A stretch of DNA of 64,000 bases from Hyphomicrobiales bacterium (GTDB lineage: Bacteria; Pseudomonadota; Alphaproteobacteria; Rhizobiales; Beijerinckiaceae). Positions within the stretch are counted from its first letter, which is position 1; each line of letters opens with the position of its first letter. The position numbers and the translations under genes were made by a program. Location of the stretch: assembly GCA_930633495.1 (NCBI GenBank), contig CAKNFJ010000001.1, forward strand, positions 1-64,000, given 5' to 3'. The notes under the pieces are model-generated. The model did not search any database and had not been told where the DNA came from. It was given only the letters and a program-made list of their open reading frames with translations. Of this stretch, positions 1-9,457 are shown piece after piece.

Positions 1-302
1 CTTTCGCAATTTGGTGCGTGAGTGAGTGATCGTCTCAGGTGAGGCTGCTGAGGCTTAGGCTCGGATATTTCGGTGCACACCACTCAGCAGTCTTTTGGTG
101 CGGGCTTTTGCCGCACACGCTTCGCTACTGCCTCTGAGAAAATGGTGCGCAAATCCGGGCCATATGCGGGTCGGCCGACCGGCTGTGAACCTGTAAAGAT
201 GCACGGGACGCTTTCGTAACGCGATCGATTCCCATGAAAGCGCCCCGACAATCCGCGATTGCCCCGGCTGCGCAACCCGGACCAGCTGCGCCGGGGCAAC
301 CG
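1..302. other. Non-coding left flank of the recombinase element, with TGGTGCG repeats
   Basis: No convincing gene is seen in either strand. The stretch follows the stop codon of the leftward helicase gene, so it looks like the end of the recombinase operon or of the whole element. It carries three plus-strand copies of TGGTGCG (12-18, 96-102, 143-149) and a degenerate one near 71-77. All point rightward into the element. They match inverted copies upstream of the first recombinase gene. The true end of the element could lie in this stretch or beyond the window. Confidence 0.5.
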
Positions 303-2432
303 CTAACCGCCGCAGCCTGTCGCAACGGCAACTGGGCGATTGAGGCGGTGGCCCAGAATATATCGCAGTCCTATCTGTCGGCTGGCTGATATTCCTTCGG
401 CTCGCACGGCACTCTCGAAGGCCTTGCGGTCTCCTACGAGGACCACCTGTTGCTGGGCCCGTGTCGCCGCAGTGTACAGCATGGTGCGATCAAGCAAACG
501 GCTCCTGGTCACTGGCATGATGACCCGCGGGAACTGCGAGCCCTGGGCCTTATGCACCGTGATGGCATACGCGTGCTCCAGGTTGCCGATCGCGCCTCCC
601 GAGATGACCCTCGTTTCGCCATCAAAATCGACGCGCAGTTCGTCCGCTCCAACCGCAACTACAGTGCCGAGGCTGCCGTTCATAAGTTCGAGGTCGTAGT
701 CGTTACGTACCCAAATGACAGGCTCGCCGGCCAAAAACTGCCCCGGCTCTCGGCCATGGTCTTCGGCGAAGCTGTGGAACAAATTGTTGATGCCAGCGAC
801 CCCCGCGTTTCCCGTCCGCAATGCGCTGATGATCTGGGTACCGGTCGCTCCCAGCTCTGCTCGTAGCTGAACTAAGCGGTCGGGGATTTCCTGGTCAGCG
901 CATTCGATAAAGCTGACTCCGGGGTTGGGACCGGCATAACCAACGAACGCTGGCAGTTCGCCAACGCGAATGGATCGTGCCACGGCGGGAATGCCAGTGG
1001 AGTCAGCTTGACGATGTACCTGGAGCAGATGCGTTTTTGGGATCGGGCTTTCCGGCTCAGCTAGGACATGAAGTACCAAGCCAAACCCGATCGGGGGAAT
1101 CTGGCCCGGATCGCCGACCAACATCAATCGCGTATCTGGAGGCAGCTTCTTTAAGAGACGATAGAACAGCGGGAGGTCGAGCATGCTGGCTTCATCAATG
1201 ATGACCAAGGCTCCCGAGAGGGCATCGAGCTCAATGGTGCCGTCCGCGATCCGATTGATGAAGCCAGCAATGGTCATCGCTGGTCGGCCGGTAGTCTCCT
1301 TCATGCGCTGGGCAGCTCGGCCCGCCAGCGCGATCTGGTAGACCGAACTGAGCTGACGCTCGCAAATGTCGTGCACTGCCCGGAGCGCCGTTGTCTTTCC
1401 AGTGCCTGCCCCGCCCGTGAGCAGGGACAGGGGCATTCGAACGGCGGCAGCGACGGCTGCTCGCTGTTCCTGGTTCATGGAATAGCCGAGGCGCTGCTCG
1501 AAGCGATCCAACTCTCTGGCGATTTCACTGGTGCCGAGGGCGGATGTGAAGGGCATCTGACCCTGGCCACCCAAGCGGGTGACCACCTGGTTGGCAAGAA
1601 AGGTTTCCATGGCGGCGGCGCCGGCGCCTACGATCAATCCGCCGCACGGGAGAACCGCGTTGTCCTCTATCGCGAGCCTCAGCGCTGTGGCCGCGGATTC
1701 CTCACTGCTGTCCAAGAGAGAGCGGATGCCGACAAGCAACTCAGCCTTTTCGGTGGCGGTGTGCCCGCCTTCAAGCCGGGCATAGACAGCTGCTTCGACA
1801 CCGGCAACCAGTCTCCTGGGGTCATCCAGTGGCACGCCTATCGCCCGAGCAAGAGCTTCGACCTGCCTCCATGGCAGGAAGGCCAGGAGCCTGTATGGGT
1901 TTTCCTTAGCCTTCTCGGGCAACGCGTTTCCGTAGATCGCTGCGAGAGGCGCTGCGATCTTTCGAGGCAGCCCGTGCGCATCCAGCCAGCGGTAGGTTCC
2001 TGCTTCGAGCGTCTGTTCGGCCCACGCAAGCATTGCCGCCCGCGCAAGCTCCGCGCTGACGATGGGATTGAGGCTGTGAGGGTCGCCCCCGTCGAGTAGA
2101 TCGTAAAGCCGATCGCCGAAAGCCTCGTACAGTTGGCGTGCTCTGACCTTCCCAATTCCCGGGCAAGCGGGGCTACAAAGGAAGCTGATCACCATCTCGC
2201 CGGTGGGGCGTTCCAGGATGGCTGAGGACGCTTGCAATTGGGGGCCATGCTCAGGGTGGCGGACAATGGAGCCATGCAGTTCCCACGTCTCTCCCAACCT
2301 CGGTGGCCGCGGCATCGCATCGCCATTGGTGAGGATGCGCATGCGCAAGCCATCCGGAGAGCGACCCGTAAAGATCGCGCCGCCGTGTCGCCCTATCCAG
2401 TGAATGGCCTCAACGGCAAAAGATCCGATCAC
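303..2432 (-). CDS. RecD2-like superfamily 1 DNA helicase
   Basis: ATP-dependent 5'-3' DNA helicase of the RecD2/TraA-like SF1B group, predicted. An N-terminal region with helix-hairpin-helix-like character (PGIGKVRA near residue 90) precedes the motor. Walker A (GGAGTGKTT) lies about residue 340, Walker B (VIIDEAS) about 405, motif III (VGDPGQIPP) about 435, and the C-terminal motifs (TVHKAQGSQ and YTAATRA) about 630-660. At 709 aa it matches RecD2 length. The start is GTG, overlapping the upstream stop by 4 bases (GTGA), so translation is probably coupled. It is the last gene of a six-gene operon with three tyrosine recombinases, which suggests a role in processing or replicating an excised element rather than RecBCD-type repair. 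No recB or recC is nearby. The helicase call is firm; the role is inferred. Confidence 0.85.
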   Translation of the reverse strand: MIGSFAVEAIHWIGRHGGAIFTGRSPDGLRMRILTNGDAMPRPPRLGETWELHGSIVRHPEHGPQLQASSAILERPTGEMVISFLCSPACPGIGKVRARQLYEAFGDRLYDLLDGGDPHSLNPIVSAELARAAMLAWAEQTLEAGTYRWLDAHGLPRKIAAPLAAIYGNALPEKAKENPYRLLAFLPWRQVEALARAIGVPLDDPRRLVAGVEAAVYARLEGGHTATEKAELLVGIRSLLDSSEESAATALRLAIEDNAVLPCGGLIVGAGAAAMETFLANQVVTRLGGQGQMPFTSALGTSEIARELDRFEQRLGYSMNQEQRAAVAAAVRMPLSLLTGGAGTGKTTALRAVHDICERQLSSVYQIALAGRAAQRMKETTGRPAMTIAGFINRIADGTIELDALSGALVIIDEASMLDLPLFYRLLKKLPPDTRLMLVGDPGQIPPIGFGLVLHVLAEPESPIPKTHLLQVHRQADSTGIPAVARSIRVGELPAFVGYAGPNPGVSFIECADQEIPDRLVQLRAELGATGTQIISALRTGNAGVAGINNLFHSFAEDHGREPGQFLAGEPVIWVRNDYDLELMNGSLGTVVAVGADELRVDFDGETRVISGGAIGNLEHAYAITVHKAQGSQFPRVIMPVTRSRLLDRTMLYTAATRAQQQVVLVGDRKAFESAVRAEGISASRQIGLRYILGHRLNRPVAVATGCGG

Positions 2433-2881
2433 ACTATTACCCGCCGCCCGGACAGCATGATCTGCTCAATATGCTCCAGTCGTCGGAGGCGATCCCTGAG
2501 CCCAGTGATCTCGGCCATCTGTGCAGCGATGCGCTCGTCTCGTCTTTTAATCTCCTGCTCCAAGCGGCGCGTCTTGTCGTCGGCGGCAGCAGGATGATGC
2601 TGCGCCTGGACGCTGGCATCGGTAGCGCCTCTATCTCGTTCCACTCGCGGCTCCAGGACGCCAGTTTGGTGCAGGCGACCCTCAAGCTCAAAGAAAAGAG
2701 CTTTCGCCGCTGGATTCTGGGCGAACACGGACCTTCCAAACCCGCAAGCGCTAGCGATGGCGCTCCGGTTCAACTGCCCATTTGTAATGAAGGCGGCCCA
2801 GTCCTCTGGACGTCTGATTTCGTCAGCCCAAGCTCGCAGTTTGCGGACGTTCGCCTCGGCAATCTGGCGGCCATTGGCCAT
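2429..2881 (-). CDS. Small accessory protein of the recombinase element (VPA1267-like)
   Basis: A 150-aa protein. The N-terminal half (MANGRQIAEANVRKL..., then LNRSAIASACGFGRS near residues 37-51) looks like a DNA-binding helix-turn-helix. The C-terminal half is a charged heptad-rich helix (about 100-140), a likely coiled coil. From memory it resembles the family named after Vibrio VPA1267, which sits beside recombinases in mobile islands; I could not check this. Its ATG overlaps the upstream stop (TGATG) and its own stop overlaps the helicase GTG. Likely a DNA-binding or architectural partner of the recombinases, by inference. Confidence 0.65.
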   Translation of the reverse strand: MANGRQIAEANVRKLRAWADEIRRPEDWAAFITNGQLNRSAIASACGFGRSVFAQNPAAKALFFELEGRLHQTGVLEPRVERDRGATDASVQAQHHPAAADDKTRRLEQEIKRRDERIAAQMAEITGLRDRLRRLEHIEQIMLSGRRVIV

Positions 2882-3366
2882 CAGGCATCCCCCTCATCGG
2901 CTACGGATGCAAGGCGAAGAGGTGTGACGGGATCCGGAATGGCCTTGATGTCGGCAAGCTTGCTCAACGCCGCCTGGTGGGCCTCGAAAAAGCGCCGATA
3001 TGCGCGCATTCCGCCAATCTCGCCCACGGCCATGATCATGGCCCTGTGTGACGCAATCAGAAGTGCATTTTCCTCCGTGAGCTCTTTGATACGCAAGTTC
3101 GCTCGGGCCAGAGGAAGGCTTTCAGAACTCGTGATATGGCCTCGCTGCGTTCCCCTGATAGTAACAGCTAGCTTCTGCAAATTCCTGGCTCTTTGGACTT
3201 GATCTCGGCGCTCCGCGTCTCGTGACAATGTTGTGTGCGCCACACCCAGCTTCACAGCGACCGAGCGCAATGTGACCTTCTCGTCGGCTGCGATCAGTTC
3301 ACGGCAAACACTGCCAATTTTCGGGTCGGGGGCGTCCAATTCGTCGAGCGTGATGATCTCAGTCAT
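2881..3366 (-). CDS. Small helix-turn-helix/coiled-coil protein, TnpC- or GmtX-like position
   Basis: A 161-aa protein. A predicted helix-turn-helix (VTLRSVAVKLGVAHTTLSRD, about residues 31-50) is followed by a long helix (about 85-115). It has no catalytic motif. The layout of one HTH that reads a short site plus a helical tail recalls the TnpC proteins of Tn554-type transposons and the third protein of Gamma-Mobile-Trio modules. Those assignments come from memory and gene position only. The ATG overlaps the stop of the 771-aa recombinase by 4 bases. Probable recombination directionality or accessory factor. Confidence 0.65.
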   Translation of the reverse strand: MTEIITLDELDAPDPKIGSVCRELIAADEKVTLRSVAVKLGVAHTTLSRDAERRDQVQRARNLQKLAVTIRGTQRGHITSSESLPLARANLRIKELTEENALLIASHRAMIMAVGEIGGMRAYRRFFEAHQAALSKLADIKAIPDPVTPLRLASVADEGDA

Positions 3367-5678
3367 TCGATTAGGCCGCTCATGCGAACTTCCTTGAAGG
3401 GGCGGCTAAGATCCTCACCATTGGGGAAGACGAAGTCGCCTGCTTTGGTCGCGATGGCCTGTTCGATCGCCGCCAGTCGGGCGGTCGCTTGTGCCTTTGC
3501 CTTGGATTTCGCTGCGTCTGACCCAGGGTGCTTGTCGATCGAGGCGAGAACAGCTTGATACCGGCCTGCGAGCTTTTGGAGCTGTGTGGTCTCGCCCGGC
3601 AAACCCGTCCTCATCAGATGGCTGCAGCCACCGAAACATTCGAGGTGGCGAGGGCAGGGTTCAACGACAAAGGAGTTCAGGCAAAGGCCATATGGCGTGA
3701 TCTGCATCCCGTCGGCCTCGGCAGCCAAATAGACCACTGCGGCTTCGTCGCCTTCTTCCTTTTGGATCCGGCGAAACTCGTCGACGACCCGACCACTACT
3801 CCGATTGGAGGCGATGAGCTTAAAGGCATCCCGAGCGGGTCCGATAAGAAGGTCCGCCGTGCCTGGCGGCAACTCCATGTCGGTCAATTCCTGGGCCAAC
3901 GTTCGGCTATCGTATTCATGGCTTTGCGCAACGGATTTCCGGCCAAAGCGATGAGTAATGATGGTATCAGCGACGCCAGCAACAAACAGCTCGTTATTGT
4001 GCATGTGTCGCATGGCATGCGAGTTGAGCGTGTAGGATGCCGCTTCCGGTTTGCCATACTTAGCAAAGAAGCTCTGCCCCGCCACGCTTTCCTTTCCCAA
4101 CGCCTCAGTGATGTCTTGCGAAGTCAGGCGACCGACGAAGGCATATCGTGTTACGTCGCAGACGGTATCTCCGCGTGCTTCATTGAGGGCGCGCTTTGGA
4201 GCCAGAAAGAGGCATTCATGGACAGCGAGTTCTCGCTGTCCTTCAAGAGGAAAGCCTTCGGTGTCGCTGAGCTTCGTCGGCAAGTTTATCTTGATTGCCT
4301 GTTCGAACTCCGAGATCAGGACGCCGAGGGATCCATACCGTGGACGCGATGCATTGCTGGCTGGCCGCAATTCGGAAGTCGCGATATCGCGACGAGGAAT
4401 CCAGCTGTTTCCACTCCGTGCCATGTATAGGGTAAATGCACCGCTATACGGTGCTCCTTGGCTTTGAAGTCGCGCTTGGTAGCTCCTGATTTCCAAGAGA
4501 ACCTTGGGGTCAAGCGTCCGACGGTATTTCTTAGCGAGATGATTATTCTTAGGGCCGTAAAAGACAAACGGGTTTCCTGATATGCGAGGGTAAATTTCCG
4601 TCAATGGCACCATTTCGTCGAGAGCATACTCGGGGAATATGCGGCCGGTTGTGATTTGCTCCTTGAGACGTTGGCGTAACGGCGCGGTTGCTTGTTCCAC
4701 GCGGTCGAGCACGGTTTGCACCTCATCCTCGAACATCCGGAGGATCGAGGTGGAAGTTTCGGCATAGATGACGGAGCGGGCCGATCTCAGGCCCTGCTTT
4801 TCCGAGAAGTGACGGATGAACATGGTCTGGCCAATGCCACCCCGCACGGCGGCGCTCTGCCCACGAACGTCCACGTATTTTTTCACGCTTACCGGCTTCA
4901 CGGGAATTGTCGCTATCTCTTCGACGCGCAAACCCATCAGGATGCCAAGCTCCACGGCGCCGAACCTGACCATGTCGTAGAAGGATGTGGGGCGTTCCTC
5001 GAGGAGAATGCGGAGCATTTCCCAGAACTCCCGCGCCCGGGGAAGGCGATCTGCCCTCCGCCGCTCTTCGAGTTTCGTGCGGATCTCCGGCATGCGCTTT
5101 CTCGCATTCAGCCTCTTCGATCGCTGTCCAAGCAAAGGGCAAAAGGCCGAAAGTCCGTTGTCATCGAGAATGATCAACAAAGCTTCGACCAGCGATTGGA
5201 GCTTGGCGTTTTTGTCAGCTTTCCCCAGGATCGACAGCGCCGTACCTACGTCCTCGCTGTTCAGTTCCCACGGCTCTTTCTCATAGCAGCAGGTAGCCAA
5301 GGCGCGTATCGGTCGTAAGATTCCATGGCGAATATGCTTGGCGCTATTCCTCTTCTCAAACAGAGCCCGAACCGTCAGTGCCTTCAAAAGCTCCCGCCAT
5401 TCGGGACTGATTGCACCATCGTTGATAAGGGAGGCGCCGAGAGATGCTCGCTCGGCGTTCAAGATGGCGAGGGTGGATGGATCCCGACCAAAGTCGGAGA
5501 GATAAAAGGCCGGCGGCTTTGGTGTGCCCGTTATTTCACCGATATCCCACCGAACATCCTTCGACACAGCACCGTCAGGCCCCACAGGGATGTCCCAGCG
5601 AAGGCCATTCGCATTTGCAACCCGCTGGTAGGTCGAGATGAACTGATCAAATTGGGCCGGACGATCGCCGCCGCTCAT
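3363..5678 (-). CDS. Large tyrosine recombinase-like protein with C-terminal Cys cluster
   Basis: A 771-aa protein, far longer than a usual integrase. A catalytic-domain pattern is visible: Arg in GLRVEEIA (about residue 251), then HAMRHMHNN (an HxxR box, about 565), then FGRKSVAQSHEYD with the probable Tyr nucleophile about 600. The H/W of box III is not obvious, so activity is uncertain. A Cys-rich segment (about 685-705; GLCLN, PCPRHLEC, GGC) could bind zinc. It is followed by a helical tail. It has 4-base overlaps with both neighbours. It occupies the place of TnpB in Tn554 or GmtZ in Gamma-Mobile-Trio modules. Recombinase fold likely; precise role unknown. Confidence 0.7.
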   Translation of the reverse strand: MSGGDRPAQFDQFISTYQRVANANGLRWDIPVGPDGAVSKDVRWDIGEITGTPKPPAFYLSDFGRDPSTLAILNAERASLGASLINDGAISPEWRELLKALTVRALFEKRNSAKHIRHGILRPIRALATCCYEKEPWELNSEDVGTALSILGKADKNAKLQSLVEALLIILDDNGLSAFCPLLGQRSKRLNARKRMPEIRTKLEERRRADRLPRAREFWEMLRILLEERPTSFYDMVRFGAVELGILMGLRVEEIATIPVKPVSVKKYVDVRGQSAAVRGGIGQTMFIRHFSEKQGLRSARSVIYAETSTSILRMFEDEVQTVLDRVEQATAPLRQRLKEQITTGRIFPEYALDEMVPLTEIYPRISGNPFVFYGPKNNHLAKKYRRTLDPKVLLEIRSYQARLQSQGAPYSGAFTLYMARSGNSWIPRRDIATSELRPASNASRPRYGSLGVLISEFEQAIKINLPTKLSDTEGFPLEGQRELAVHECLFLAPKRALNEARGDTVCDVTRYAFVGRLTSQDITEALGKESVAGQSFFAKYGKPEAASYTLNSHAMRHMHNNELFVAGVADTIITHRFGRKSVAQSHEYDSRTLAQELTDMELPPGTADLLIGPARDAFKLIASNRSSGRVVDEFRRIQKEEGDEAAVVYLAAEADGMQITPYGLCLNSFVVEPCPRHLECFGGCSHLMRTGLPGETTQLQKLAGRYQAVLASIDKHPGSDAAKSKAKAQATARLAAIEQAIATKAGDFVFPNGEDLSRPFKEVRMSGLIE

Positions 5679-7234
5679 CGCGCCTGCTCCGGCATGGTCG
5701 GATCCAAATCCTCGACAATGGCATCAATAATTTCCACCACCTCGCGCAGCTGCATGAACGCTGGGCTCACCCGATCTGTGCGGCCGGACGCGACAAACTC
5801 CTGGACGATTTGCTGAACGGAATCCCGAGCAGCCCGATGCACCTCGGCATCTCGGAGGTACATAAACTTGGCGCAGCCGTAGCATGCGAGGGCAGGGGTC
5901 TTTGTGCAAAAGGACTGCCCGATGGCGCAGCCCCCAATTCCCGCGATCAGATGGCCATGAGGAGCGGAGCCAACCTGCATGTCATTCGGCAGATCATTGA
6001 GTTCGTCGAGTGTGACGGAGCGCGCTTTCAGCGCCTTATCAATCGCCTGGAACAGGGGAGACAGGCCAAGGGCCTGATTGATTTTCTCCGCCTGAGTTGG
6101 GCTCATCTCGATGTAGGCGTCAGCTGTCTCGATGTCCTGGTGCATAAGGAACTCGGCCAACTCAACGCGGGAACAGCCGGCATCCGCCTTCCGTTGCGCA
6201 GCGGAATGCCGAAGGTCATAAGGCACCCTGCGAACACCTGTGATCTGCTCAGTTTTCTCCGCTACGATCGTAGTGATTTCAGAGGGCGAGACCCCGAATA
6301 GGGAATTGGGCCGATCGAAATCGACGGCGGGATTTAGCAATGCTCGTCGCGCCAACCACTCGGCCATCATCGGCGTCCAGTCCCGCTTCATCTTGCGGGT
6401 TTGCTCCATGGACTTCGCCTTGCCCCTTTGCTTGGCGTACCTGAAAGTCAAATGAATGACCGGATTTCCCTCATCCTGAGTGCGAAGCCTGGCGTGGCCG
6501 ATATCGCGGTTGGCGATCTGAATAGGACGCATGGCGTGCGCATAATTCCAGAACAGTACGCACGCGTCGCGGAGGTCCGCCGTCTGCACCGAGGCAGGGC
6601 TACCACGGAGAATTTCAGCGTTCAGATCGTCAAAATATGAGATGATTCTGCGCTCCTCCTCGAAGCTGATGATCGCTGCTCCATCGCGAACCGTTCGGTA
6701 CTTGGAGCGCTCGAATGGCGCGTTGATTGATTTCAATATGTTCGCATGCGACTTTCCCCAGCCAGCAATCTCAACTTCGCAGAAAAAATAGAGCATCGCC
6801 TTAGCGGACGTAAAATATTGGCTGCTTCCGACGACGCCTGACAGCGCAAAGAATTCCGTTCTTAGATATGAAATAGCATCTTCAGGCGCCTTGCACGCAA
6901 TGATCAAAAGAGGCAACTGATACGCGATCGTGCGGATATAATCCCCGAGGTAATTTACTGCTGTAGAGGGATTTTTGTGAAGCCTATTGATAGTAAAATG
7001 CTTTAATAAAATCTCCAATTGCGCACTGAGATTTGAGTACGGCAACGTCGCTTTTCTTCCGCCGCAGTCGATAATCCAGCGCTTCTCACTTGTATCTATA
7101 GATTTCGTCTTCTCGTTATATTCATCATAATAGCGAGCTATTTTTGGCAACGGGCCCAATTCTTCAGCGACGGAATTAAAGATTTCGACGCTATCAGATG
7201 GCTTTGAATTTGGGCTAGTTTCAAAATAGTTCAT
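5675..7234 (-). CDS. Tyrosine recombinase/integrase with C-terminal Cys cluster
   Basis: A 519-aa site-specific recombinase. Its catalytic residues are readable: Arg in AMRPIQIAN (about residue 235), YDLRHSAAQ (about 340; Tyr replaces the usual His of HxxR), box-III His in LMHQDIET, and the nucleophile Tyr in ADAYIEM (about 373). A C-terminal Cys cluster (GGCAIGQSFC and CYGC, about 430-460) resembles those of integrases from Tn554-like and trio elements. The 5' third (6900-7230) is strikingly A+T-rich for this genome, a sign of foreign origin. It has ATGA overlaps with the 410-aa recombinase upstream and the 771-aa one downstream. Confidence 0.85.
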   Translation of the reverse strand: MNYFETSPNSKPSDSVEIFNSVAEELGPLPKIARYYDEYNEKTKSIDTSEKRWIIDCGGRKATLPYSNLSAQLEILLKHFTINRLHKNPSTAVNYLGDYIRTIAYQLPLLIIACKAPEDAISYLRTEFFALSGVVGSSQYFTSAKAMLYFFCEVEIAGWGKSHANILKSINAPFERSKYRTVRDGAAIISFEEERRIISYFDDLNAEILRGSPASVQTADLRDACVLFWNYAHAMRPIQIANRDIGHARLRTQDEGNPVIHLTFRYAKQRGKAKSMEQTRKMKRDWTPMMAEWLARRALLNPAVDFDRPNSLFGVSPSEITTIVAEKTEQITGVRRVPYDLRHSAAQRKADAGCSRVELAEFLMHQDIETADAYIEMSPTQAEKINQALGLSPLFQAIDKALKARSVTLDELNDLPNDMQVGSAPHGHLIAGIGGCAIGQSFCTKTPALACYGCAKFMYLRDAEVHRAARDSVQQIVQEFVASGRTDRVSPAFMQLREVVEIIDAIVEDLDPTMPEQAR

Positions 7235-8463
7235 ATCCGCACTTGGTCAATGCTAGGCTCGATGGCGCGAATTGCGTTCACATGGGAATCGAAATCATCA
7301 TTCCATACTTGTGCAACATGCCGTTCCCAGTACGCCCGAGCGTAGAGTCGCGGCATAACTGAATCGTAGGTCCATCCGAAGAACGCCCGCAGTTTCTGTA
7401 AGGCTGCCTCTTCCGAAATTCCGGCAGATCGAAAATGATAGAGCCTTACGACGGCGCATGTGTGCCGTAAGTCATGAGCCGTGACCTTTGGTTCGCGCAT
7501 CGCGTCCAGGAGATGCTGTCGAGAAGTGTGAGACAGCGCGCTTGATGCGCTCGACATGATCTTACTAACGCTTCGGGAGCCGAGTGGTACTCCGCTGGAA
7601 TTGAGAAAAAAATGGGGGTAGGGGGATTTTCCTCGATGATTCTCATAGAAATGCTGGAAGCGGCGGGCGACATCCGGAGATACAGGAACCTGCCTCACGC
7701 TGTGGTCATTCTTGATCGAAGGCGCATCGCAAAAGCGAGGGTCTTCCTCGGCGAAGAGGTTCTGAACATTGATCCAGTGTCGCGGCTTCAAGGTCTGATC
7801 ATCGATGCCGCTCTTGATGGCATCGGCGGGCAAAAGCAAAGCCTCACCTCGGCGAAGGCCTTGATGGAGGAATGCGAGCAAAAGGCAGTGATTTCGCCAC
7901 CGGCGGCTCTCACCACGGAATGGATTGTTGGAGGACGCCGGATCGAAGATTGCGTAGATTTCACGCAAGACGGTCGACGGCAAAGCGCGGATTGTGCTGG
8001 GGTTGGGGGCTTTAGGGTTTGGGCGAAGATTTGAAAGCCTGGCACTAAGCCTCTGGATCCGTCTGTGAATGCTTCTGTGAGATTCCTCCGCTTCCGATAC
8101 GCGCTTGACGATGGTCTCGACGAAACTCGATACGGTCGCCCACCGGTCACGGTGATCCGAACCGGTCTGAACGGCTGAGTTCCTCAGCTTGATGAAAAAG
8201 CCCTCCAACGACGTTGAAAGACGGTCCGCGTCTGCCTGGTGAAGGATATCGTCTAAGACGTCGGCGCCGTGAATGTCCTCGACGTGCTGATAGAACGCAT
8301 CGATTGCATGAAGATGCATCCGGGTGGTGTTGTTCCGGAGATGCGCAAGCGAGGTGACCTCATAGACCGCGGACCAGAATCTCGGAACGCCGGAAGTCGC
8401 GACCGCGACGGGGCGTCTTAATGACGCCGGGACGAAGTCCGAGTTGAGGTTGCGGATGCCCAT
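7231..8463 (-). CDS. Tyrosine recombinase/integrase, first gene of the element operon
   Basis: A 410-aa phage-integrase-type recombinase. It has a SAM-like N-terminal core-binding domain (about 25-125) and a catalytic domain (about 165-385). The residues seen are Arg in GLRRGEAL, HDLRHTCA (HxxR), Trp in FGWTYDS (box III) and Tyr in RLYARAYWE. All residues needed for DNA strand exchange appear present. It is the promoter-proximal gene of the six-gene operon. No clear Shine-Dalgarno sequence precedes the ATG; the upstream stretch on the coding strand is pyrimidine-rich. It carries no Cys cluster, unlike the next two recombinases. Comparable in size to TnpA of Tn554 or RitA of recombinase-in-trio elements. 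Confidence 0.88.
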   Translation of the reverse strand: MGIRNLNSDFVPASLRRPVAVATSGVPRFWSAVYEVTSLAHLRNNTTRMHLHAIDAFYQHVEDIHGADVLDDILHQADADRLSTSLEGFFIKLRNSAVQTGSDHRDRWATVSSFVETIVKRVSEAEESHRSIHRRIQRLSARLSNLRPNPKAPNPSTIRALPSTVLREIYAIFDPASSNNPFRGESRRWRNHCLLLAFLHQGLRRGEALLLPADAIKSGIDDQTLKPRHWINVQNLFAEEDPRFCDAPSIKNDHSVRQVPVSPDVARRFQHFYENHRGKSPYPHFFLNSSGVPLGSRSVSKIMSSASSALSHTSRQHLLDAMREPKVTAHDLRHTCAVVRLYHFRSAGISEEAALQKLRAFFGWTYDSVMPRLYARAYWERHVAQVWNDDFDSHVNAIRAIEPSIDQVRI

Positions 8464-8505
8464 AAAGGGAAAGGTAGCGGGCAGCTCTTAAAGGCCACAA
8501 GCGCG

Positions 8506-8577
8506 CGCACCAAAGCGACAGGGGATAAGTTCCTGATAGCGCTCCCAGTACTATCAGAGACTCGTCGCTTCGCACCA
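8506..8577. repeat. Two inverted copies of TGGTGCG upstream of the recombinase operon
   Basis: Reverse-complement copies lie at 8506-8512 and 8571-8577. Read on the minus strand both are TGGTGCG preceded by CTT or AAC, and both point into the element. They mirror the three plus-strand copies at 12-149. They are probable recombinase or accessory-protein binding sites, by inference from density and orientation. Confidence 0.5.
8533..8557. promoter_or_regulatory. Perfect 7-bp inverted repeat in the element's upstream region
   Basis: CTGATAG and CTATCAG are separated by 11 bases. The geometry fits a repressor operator or a tyrosine-recombinase core site with paired arms. It lies between the two TGGTGCG copies and 70-95 bases upstream of the first recombinase start, so it could control the whole operon. 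Confidence 0.4.
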
Positions 8578-8626
8578 GTTTTGAAAGTACCTCGCCTTCG
8601 CATAAGACATATTATGGAACTTGTTC

Positions 8627-8659
8627 ATTTGAGTCGGCAGGCCGATATGGACCTCAAAT
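8627..8659. repeat. Inverted repeat spanning the stop codon of the MBL-fold gene
   Basis: ATTTGAG (8627-8633) and CTCAAAT (8653-8659) form 7-bp arms around a 19-base spacer. The right arm includes the stop codon of the MBL-fold gene. It could be a weak terminator of the housekeeping operon or the attachment site of the neighbouring element. Confidence 0.35.
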
Positions 8660-9457
8660 CGGCACGGTCACCGTCATGCCGTCGAACGCCACATCGATAT
8701 TGCCCGCTAAGCGCTTGGTCAGGCTCGCATAATCGAGATCGACATGCAGGTTCGTCAGGATCGCGCGGCGCGGTTTCAGCGCGGCGATTGCCTCGAGCGA
8801 GCGTTCGAGATGGAAATGGCTCACATGCGGCGTCTCGCGAAGGCAATCGAGAACGAGCATGTCGAGATCGGCCATGGCGTCCATGGCCGCCGGCGGGATC
8901 AGGCTCACATCGGGCAGATAAGCGAAGTCGGCGAAACGGAAGCCCAGGGCTTCGTAGTTCGGCCCGTGCTCGACCCGGAACGGCAGAGCCTCGATCGGCC
9001 CGCCGGAGCCATCGATGGTCTGGCTGCGGCCCGCGATGATCTGGTCGAGGTCGAGGATCGGCGGATAATAGCTGCCGGCCGGCGTCTCGAAGAGATAGCC
9101 GAAGCGCGAGCGCAGCGACGCCTCCGTGGTCGTGTCGGCGTAGACCCGGATCCTTCGGCCCATATACAGGACGAGCGCACGCAGATCGTCGATGCCATGG
9201 AGGTGATCGGCGTGGTCATGCGTCAGCAGGACGCCATCCAGGGCCGGCACCTCGGCCGACAGGAGTTGCTCGCGCAGATCCGGTGAGGTGTCGACCAGAA
9301 CGCGCGTTGTTCCGCCGAGGCCCGATCGCTCCACCAGGATGGAACAGCGCCGCCGACGGTTCTTCGGATTTGTGGGATCGCAGGCTCCCCAGCCGGAGCC
9401 GGGCCGTGGCACGCCGCCCGAGGAACCGCAGCCGAGGATCGTCACGGTCAGCGTCAT
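8654..9457 (-). CDS. MBL-fold metallo-hydrolase (PhnP/RNase Z-like)
   Basis: A 267-aa beta-lactamase-fold hydrolase. The metal-binding signature THDHADHLHG (about residues 79-88) is intact, with further His in VEHGPN and the late NLHVDLDY. An N-terminal GCGSSGGVPR motif is typical of the PhnP-like cyclic phosphodiesterase group. The substrate cannot be told from sequence; a 2',3'-cyclic nucleotide or a related phosphodiester is plausible. It is the last gene of a leftward operon, 8 bases after tatD, an order common in Hyphomicrobiales. The recombinase element abuts its 3' end. Confidence 0.85.
   Translation of the reverse strand: MTLTVTILGCGSSGGVPRPGSGWGACDPTNPKNRRRRCSILVERSGLGGTTRVLVDTSPDLREQLLSAEVPALDGVLLTHDHADHLHGIDDLRALVLYMGRRIRVYADTTTEASLRSRFGYLFETPAGSYYPPILDLDQIIAGRSQTIDGSGGPIEALPFRVEHGPNYEALGFRFADFAYLPDVSLIPPAAMDAMADLDMLVLDCLRETPHVSHFHLERSLEAIAALKPRRAILTNLHVDLDYASLTKRLAGNIDVAFDGMTVTVPI

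Follow-up and report, generated by a model that had tools for sequence, protein, structure and literature searches.

Almost all circular bacterial chromosomes have the dimer-resolution site dif, and Xer-exploiting elements (IMEX) insert there, retain dif and carry no recombinase of their own. GInts, whose core genes are ginABCD, are called the Tn6571 family in PMC10121019; their four core genes are reported to act together, 6-nt staggered cuts are proposed, and the target is an ABC transporter gene. PMC10214605 describes strand-biased circularizing integrative elements (SEs) with the gene set intA-tfp-intB-srap. Here we analyze a six-gene element at the start of a 64,000-nucleotide stretch ("the window") of a Hyphomicrobiales bacterium of the Beijerinckiaceae (assembly GCA_930633495.1, contig CAKNFJ010000001.1, positions 1 to 64,000). 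We read the element, from its sequence, as GInt-like (ginABCD) with a VPA1267-helicase pair of the type found in Gamma-Mobile-Trio (GMT) islands, and we consider it likely to be a small, autonomous member of the GInt-like superfamily of integrative elements, residing at dif and equipped with its own recombinase trio.

The element shares with IMEX its insertion at dif with dif kept, and differs from them in having three recombinase genes of its own. It resembles GInts in encoding three recombinases and a small helical protein in one operon at one end, in optional cargo, which a Rhizobium relative has, and probably in site-specific insertion with short direct repeats (6 bp, seen here in the same relative); remote homologous trios also stand beside an ettA-like gene in two Pseudomonas genomes, in a comparison made without named ginABCD sequences. 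It differs from GInts in its target, which is dif rather than an ABC transporter gene, in the absence of cargo from the window copy, in a third recombinase that retains the first arginine (R251) reportedly missing from GinC (PMC5385486), and in its occurrence in Alphaproteobacteria, where a survey found no ginC-ginD block (PMC10214605). With SEs it has in common a four-gene operon, imperfect terminal inverted repeats and chromosome and plasmid copies in one host (PMC10214605). SEs, which we set apart by their descriptions, are reported from Gammaproteobacteria only, and Tfp is said to be without a catalytic motif.

A preliminary description of this DNA, made from the letters alone, had called the element a candidate undescribed one. 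Within the literature covered this can hold for the dif-homing branch only. No three-recombinase element at dif was found in the titles and abstract beginnings among the matches listed, a search that left subscription papers mostly outside, and a description may exist; the whole word "dif" has 0 occurrences in the main text of PMC10214605, PMC5385486 and PMC10121019. The broad, GInt-like kind is already known; what is new is a branch that homes on dif, has recombinases of its own and reaches Alphaproteobacteria.

A six-gene operon beside a dif-type site

The six genes (303-8463) all run leftward and overlap their neighbours by 1-4 bases, and the GC content of the region is 0.574 as against 0.665 in the remaining window, as first noted. 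The first recombinase, P410 (410 aa; 7231..8463, minus strand, like the other five), holds the GinA position and scores 28.1 bits against Phage_integrase, above the cut-off. P519 (519 aa; 5675..7234), the second, in the GinB position, falls just below the cut-off of 27.1 with 25.0 bits and reaches 53.6 bits against NF041502 (cut-off 350). The third, P771 (771 aa; 3363..5678), in the GinC position, ends in a C-terminal Cys cluster; its R251, H554, R557, H558 and Y589 are invariant in an alignment of 18 homologues, and its AlphaFold model resembles XerH, lambda Int and Cre. The early proposal of three tyrosine recombinases is supported by Pfam for P410 and P519 and by predicted fold and conserved residues for P771. 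The small protein in the TnpC/GinD position, P161 (2881..3366, 161 aa), matches DUF6262 with an E value of 0.0041, under the cut-off; a P161 match accompanies P771 in 79 of the 82 related loci defined below. P150 (2429..2881, 150 aa) belongs to the VPA1267 family (NF040697, 96.3 bits, cut-off 90), and we take it to be GmtX-like. The last gene encodes P709 (303..2432, 709 aa), a RecD2-like superfamily 1B helicase (TIGR01448, 396 bits, cut-off 500; HHH_RecD2; UvrD_C_2). The profile searches that had been suggested thus confirmed VPA1267-type relatives and left DUF6262 below its cut-off.

A complete dif-type site, TTCGCATAA-GACATA-TTATGGAAC, lies at 8597..8620 beside the P410 end of the element. 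The pattern TTCGCATAA-N6-TTATG occurs in 40 of 41 genomes of the genus (own genome included), exactly once in 30 of these, and its backward control occurs in none of the 41. P771 was absent from the 60 relatives searched, 36 of them of the same genus, so that the sole match in 61 genomes was the organism's own. This absence and a second identical copy on another contig, C2, support the earlier view that the six genes form an integrative element; that description overlooked both the target and the second copy. In the single-contig relative G012, the stretches left of the site carry polar motifs on one strand (17 plus, 0 minus; three stretches, 1.60-1.76 Mb) and those to the right on the other (0 plus, 7 minus; two stretches, 1.79-1.87 Mb).

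The outer limits of the element were read directly from the sequence. An imperfect terminal inverted repeat has one arm, CTTTCGCAATTTGGTGCG, at the distal (3') end (1..18, minus strand) and the other, CGCACCAGTTTTGAAAG, at 8571..8587 (plus strand). On C2 the distal end appears about 15 bases further left (TTCGCAAAATAGGAA). Next to it, at 18..29 (minus strand), is the motif GTGAGTGAGTGA (TCACTCACTCAC on the other strand), which resembles the 3' ends of several rhizobial six-gene elements. Only about 270 bp separate the helicase gene from the 3' end of the window copy, too little for the cargo of at least 2.5 kb expected of a GInt, except if the helicase pair is itself regarded as cargo. Judged from sequence, the window copy is a bare core, one of the two options first offered: the motif ACTCACTCAC, which follows the cargo in a Rhizobium plasmid element, recurs at window 18-29.

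Beyond the site, a host gene for a metallo-beta-lactamase (MBL)-fold hydrolase (8654..9457, minus strand; Lactamase_B_2) flanks the insertion. A match to it was present in all 28 genus genomes searched, with a near match to the dif-type site within 1.5 kb of it in 18 of the 28. In several relatives from the genus, the sequence to the left of the dif-type site corresponds to window 61.8-63.1 kb read in the opposite orientation. The arrangement suggests an inversion of about 53 kb in the window genome with one end at dif (window 8600-63000).

Target of the related elements

At least 28 matches to P771, its own entry counted, were found in a large protein database, where the 7992 candidates sharing most words were scored. 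The related-locus set used here numbers 82: a genome scan gave 91 confirmed loci, of which 80 were kept, and 2 were added from a viral-contig scan. CATAA-N6-TTATG with at most one mismatch lies within about 400 bp before the P410 frame in 43 of the 58 loci with at least 250 bp upstream, and is perfect in 28; several of the 58 come from near relatives and hence are not independent. Elsewhere in these loci, 6 of 2583 stretches held a match of that quality (9/10 or better), as did 28 of 2900 shuffles. Two loci, L139 and L140, have a 9/10 match slightly farther out. Among 17 genomes picked for a canonical-looking site, 14 had exactly one such site and 1 had two, while the stricter pattern missed it in 2. 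Plasmid elements also conform, with a perfect site in 5 of the 6 read, out of 35 records with a match. The viral-class contigs L160 and L161 show the recombinase core at a perfect dif-type site.

A filled and an empty site can be compared directly. Rhizobium beringeri plasmid pRlX1 (L242) carries an 11.3-kb insert relative to R. leguminosarum plasmid pRLgr12_3 (L246); the flanks are 99.96% and 98.7% identical, the split falls at CATAA-TCAACA-TTATGGAAC, and a 6-bp repeat is present. By annotation, the insert contains two integrase genes; the positions of P771 and P161 are taken by two hypothetical genes, that of VPA1267 by a small gene and that of the helicase by an AAA ATPase gene. Its cargo comprises VOC, isochorismatase, hypothetical and NUDIX genes, and it ends with the ACTCACTCAC motif.

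In four loci from beta and gamma hosts, the core at dif is followed by genes of defence type, among them Gabija and a reverse transcriptase-protease at L101, type IIG restriction and a phospholipase D-type helicase at L109, an Avs3a-like protein at L119 and a PDC-M54A match at L091. These defence-type genes presumably belong to the four elements.

Gene sets and phylogeny

All four core families are present in 68 of the 82 loci; of the 14 that are incomplete, 12 are at contig ends. The count of co-occurrence called for at the outset gave all six genes together in 16 of 82. The VPA1267 and helicase genes behave as a pair: both are present in these 16 loci, neither in 66, and one alone in none. 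In beta-type elements, a fifth gene of about 166 aa replaces the pair (L082 5783-6280 and similar contigs); the one such protein scanned had no Pfam match. Several beta contigs of about 6.5 kb contain little beyond the element and have ends alike, and may be collapsed multi-copy elements.

A quick P410 tree of 88 rows places the window's element in a 69-row clade with support of 100; many branches are long, and the deep order is not to be relied on. Of the typed rows in this clade 43 of 55 are at dif. None of the 12 outer rows is, and in a second Pseudomonas group 2 of 5 are. The VPA1267-helicase pair needs at least 8 changes on the tree, and therefore looks like a movable add-on. In Pseudomonas, a P771-profile match was found in 31 of 199 genomes, and 14 loci were read. 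In two of these (L232 and L235) the recombinase trio adjoins a gene for an ABC-F ATPase, which we take to be ettA; others adjoin genes that we take to be ssb, nrdA or dnaQ. Remote six-gene or trio relatives at L181, L182, L233, L234, L179, L183, L236, L175 and L238 lie beside DNA-metabolism genes, recognised by eye as presumably ssb, nrdA, nth or dnaQ.

One rival to our reading is that the element is a GMT island proper that acquired a recombinase. The preliminary description leaned this way, seeing the GMT gene order with an extra recombinase in front; the 410-519-771-161 quartet has instead the make-up of ginABCD, with remote trios beside the ettA-like gene. A VPA1267-family protein close to recombinase genes is a feature shared with GMT, and the VPA1267 and RecD2-like genes adjoin the core as in gamma-type loci. 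The helicase, thought at first to be peculiar to this element, is not confined to it: of 10 loci read from the 11 non-own genomes found by VPA1267 alone, 9 have a RecD2-like gene no more than 1.5 kb from VPA1267. Four non-own loci exceed the VPA1267 cut-off. In one of them, L175, genes resembling P410 (60 bits) and P771 (23 bits) are present too, which favours the GMT explanation. By contrast, L178 has only a weak P519 match and L176 and L177 show no match to P410, P519, P771 or P161; the genes upstream in L176 encode 478, 1114 and 224 aa. As regards relatives of GmtY and GmtZ, the window profiles miss the first two of these genes yet match genes of L175. The recombinase genes of L176 and L177 are thus unmatched and those of L175 matched in part, and these differences indicate that GMT-type accessory genes occur with different recombinase sets. 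As the pair also looks like a movable add-on on the P410 tree, a GMT origin of the whole seems rather unlikely.

Two copies on two contigs

The window begins at base 1 of its contig, C1 (5.14 Mb), and window 1-8600 is identical to C2:8600-1 on a contig of 759 kb; searches of the own genome found no third copy. C2 encodes RepC (C2:11877-12380) and a Rep_3 initiator; 1.1 kb from its end it also has a gene for a tyrosine recombinase whose N-terminal domain is SAM-like. An RtcB-family gene (L004 9229-10647) is situated between the plasmid copy and repC. The sequences CCTATCA and TGATAGG flank the insert on C2, one on each side. C1 terminates in GTTGATTCGTG; among 37 distinct site contexts taken from genomes of the genus, 30 have GATTCG before CATAA. 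The end of C1 is closely preceded by a two-gene unit (L006 16422-18795) that we read by eye as an IS21-type istA/istB pair.

Polar GGGNAGGG motifs orient FtsK in E. coli. In the sampled stretches of C1 and C2 they are directed towards the contig junction from either side. After the start of C1 there are 34 on the minus and 3 on the plus strand (window 8-64 kb together with stretches at 100, 200 and 300 kb); before its end there are 14 plus and 1 minus (five 20-kb stretches, 4.70 Mb to the end). C2 has 35 minus and 4 plus up to 320 kb (ten 20-kb stretches; 3 of the 35 are inside the element) and 21 plus and 3 minus from 350 kb on (nine 20-kb stretches). Fisher tests of the strand bias gave p values of 5e-9 and 7e-10, with the split point on C2 fixed only after the counts were known.

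The polar motifs, the GATTCG at the end of C1, the flanks on C2 and its RepC gene lead us to read C1 and C2 as two separate circles, each probably with a copy at its own dif-type site. Alternatively, there may be only one copy, C1 and C2 being neighbouring pieces of the chromosome with an unjoined 8.6-kb overlap, or C2 a contaminant. The common stretch is identical and begins at base 1 of both contigs, as such an overlap would; the junctions of C1 and C2 are unassembled, the distal junction of the C1 copy is not in the assembly, and the genome record gives 4.64% contamination. This explanation is nonetheless quite improbable, as the motifs switch strand within C2 and point to C2's own two ends, the end of C1 has the GATTCG expected for the other half-site, CCTATCA and TGATAGG flank the insert on C2, and the GC content is 0.58-0.64 in 13 C2 stretches versus 0.63-0.68 in 7 C1 stretches.

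Mechanism and implications

We propose that the element, in a circular form, would recombine with dif through cutting and joining by the three tyrosine recombinases and the small accessory protein, with the crossover near the 6-bp centre of the site. Insertion would leave a complete dif on the P410 side, and dimer resolution by the host probably remains possible. A dif-type site on the 759-kb replicon would have been entered by the same element as well. The exchangeable pair of VPA1267 protein and RecD2-like helicase would probably help a circular or replicating intermediate. The choice of dif by the trio itself, the continued function of dif and the proposed role of the helicase pair are inferred, as is the view that the element still moves.

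A passive exploitation of dif, in which host XerC/XerD integrate the element as in IMEX and its own recombinases serve another step, would suit the dif-type site, since dif is described as a target of Xer-exploiting elements, but is unlikely given that the four core families occur together in nearly all loci away from contig ends and that related trios adjoin other genes, not dif.

Several observations weigh against an autonomous element that homes to dif. A 9/10 site match is missing from 15 of the 58 loci and from 12 of the 55 typed rows of the window's clade, and a 10/10 site is present in only 2 of 5 members of the second Pseudomonas group. The trios of L232 and L235 that link the element to GInts are only remotely similar (102-106 bits for P410, 22-24 for P519 and 46-48 for P771). 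In G012 the motif polarity switches again by 1.95 Mb and is mixed at greater distance, and the GC skew has no clean flip. Finally, the movement of the element is deduced from sequence comparisons and not from an observed excision, circle or transfer.

On a broader and more tentative reading, which we put at somewhat short of an even chance, these elements would be a separate transposon lineage specialised on the dimer-resolution sites of replicons, both chromosomal dif and the dif-type sites of large plasmids. Their own three recombinases would recognise Xer half-sites, and dif would be rebuilt at one end so that the host survives. The one site that circular replicons must keep would then serve the elements, which in some cases bring defence genes, as a landing place both safe and almost universal, and the VPA1267-RecD2 pair would be a replicative add-on held in common with GMT islands.

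The strict pairing of VPA1267 and helicase genes provides a functional lead for a protein of unknown role. If the proposal is true, elements with recombinases of their own that insert at dif across alpha-, beta- and gammaproteobacteria would turn it into a general hotspot for mobile islands; some of these elements are followed by Gabija, Avs3a-like and type IIG restriction genes. dif itself must stay usable, and the elements would offer a testable case of a multi-recombinase reading of a site that is also used by XerC, XerD and FtsK.

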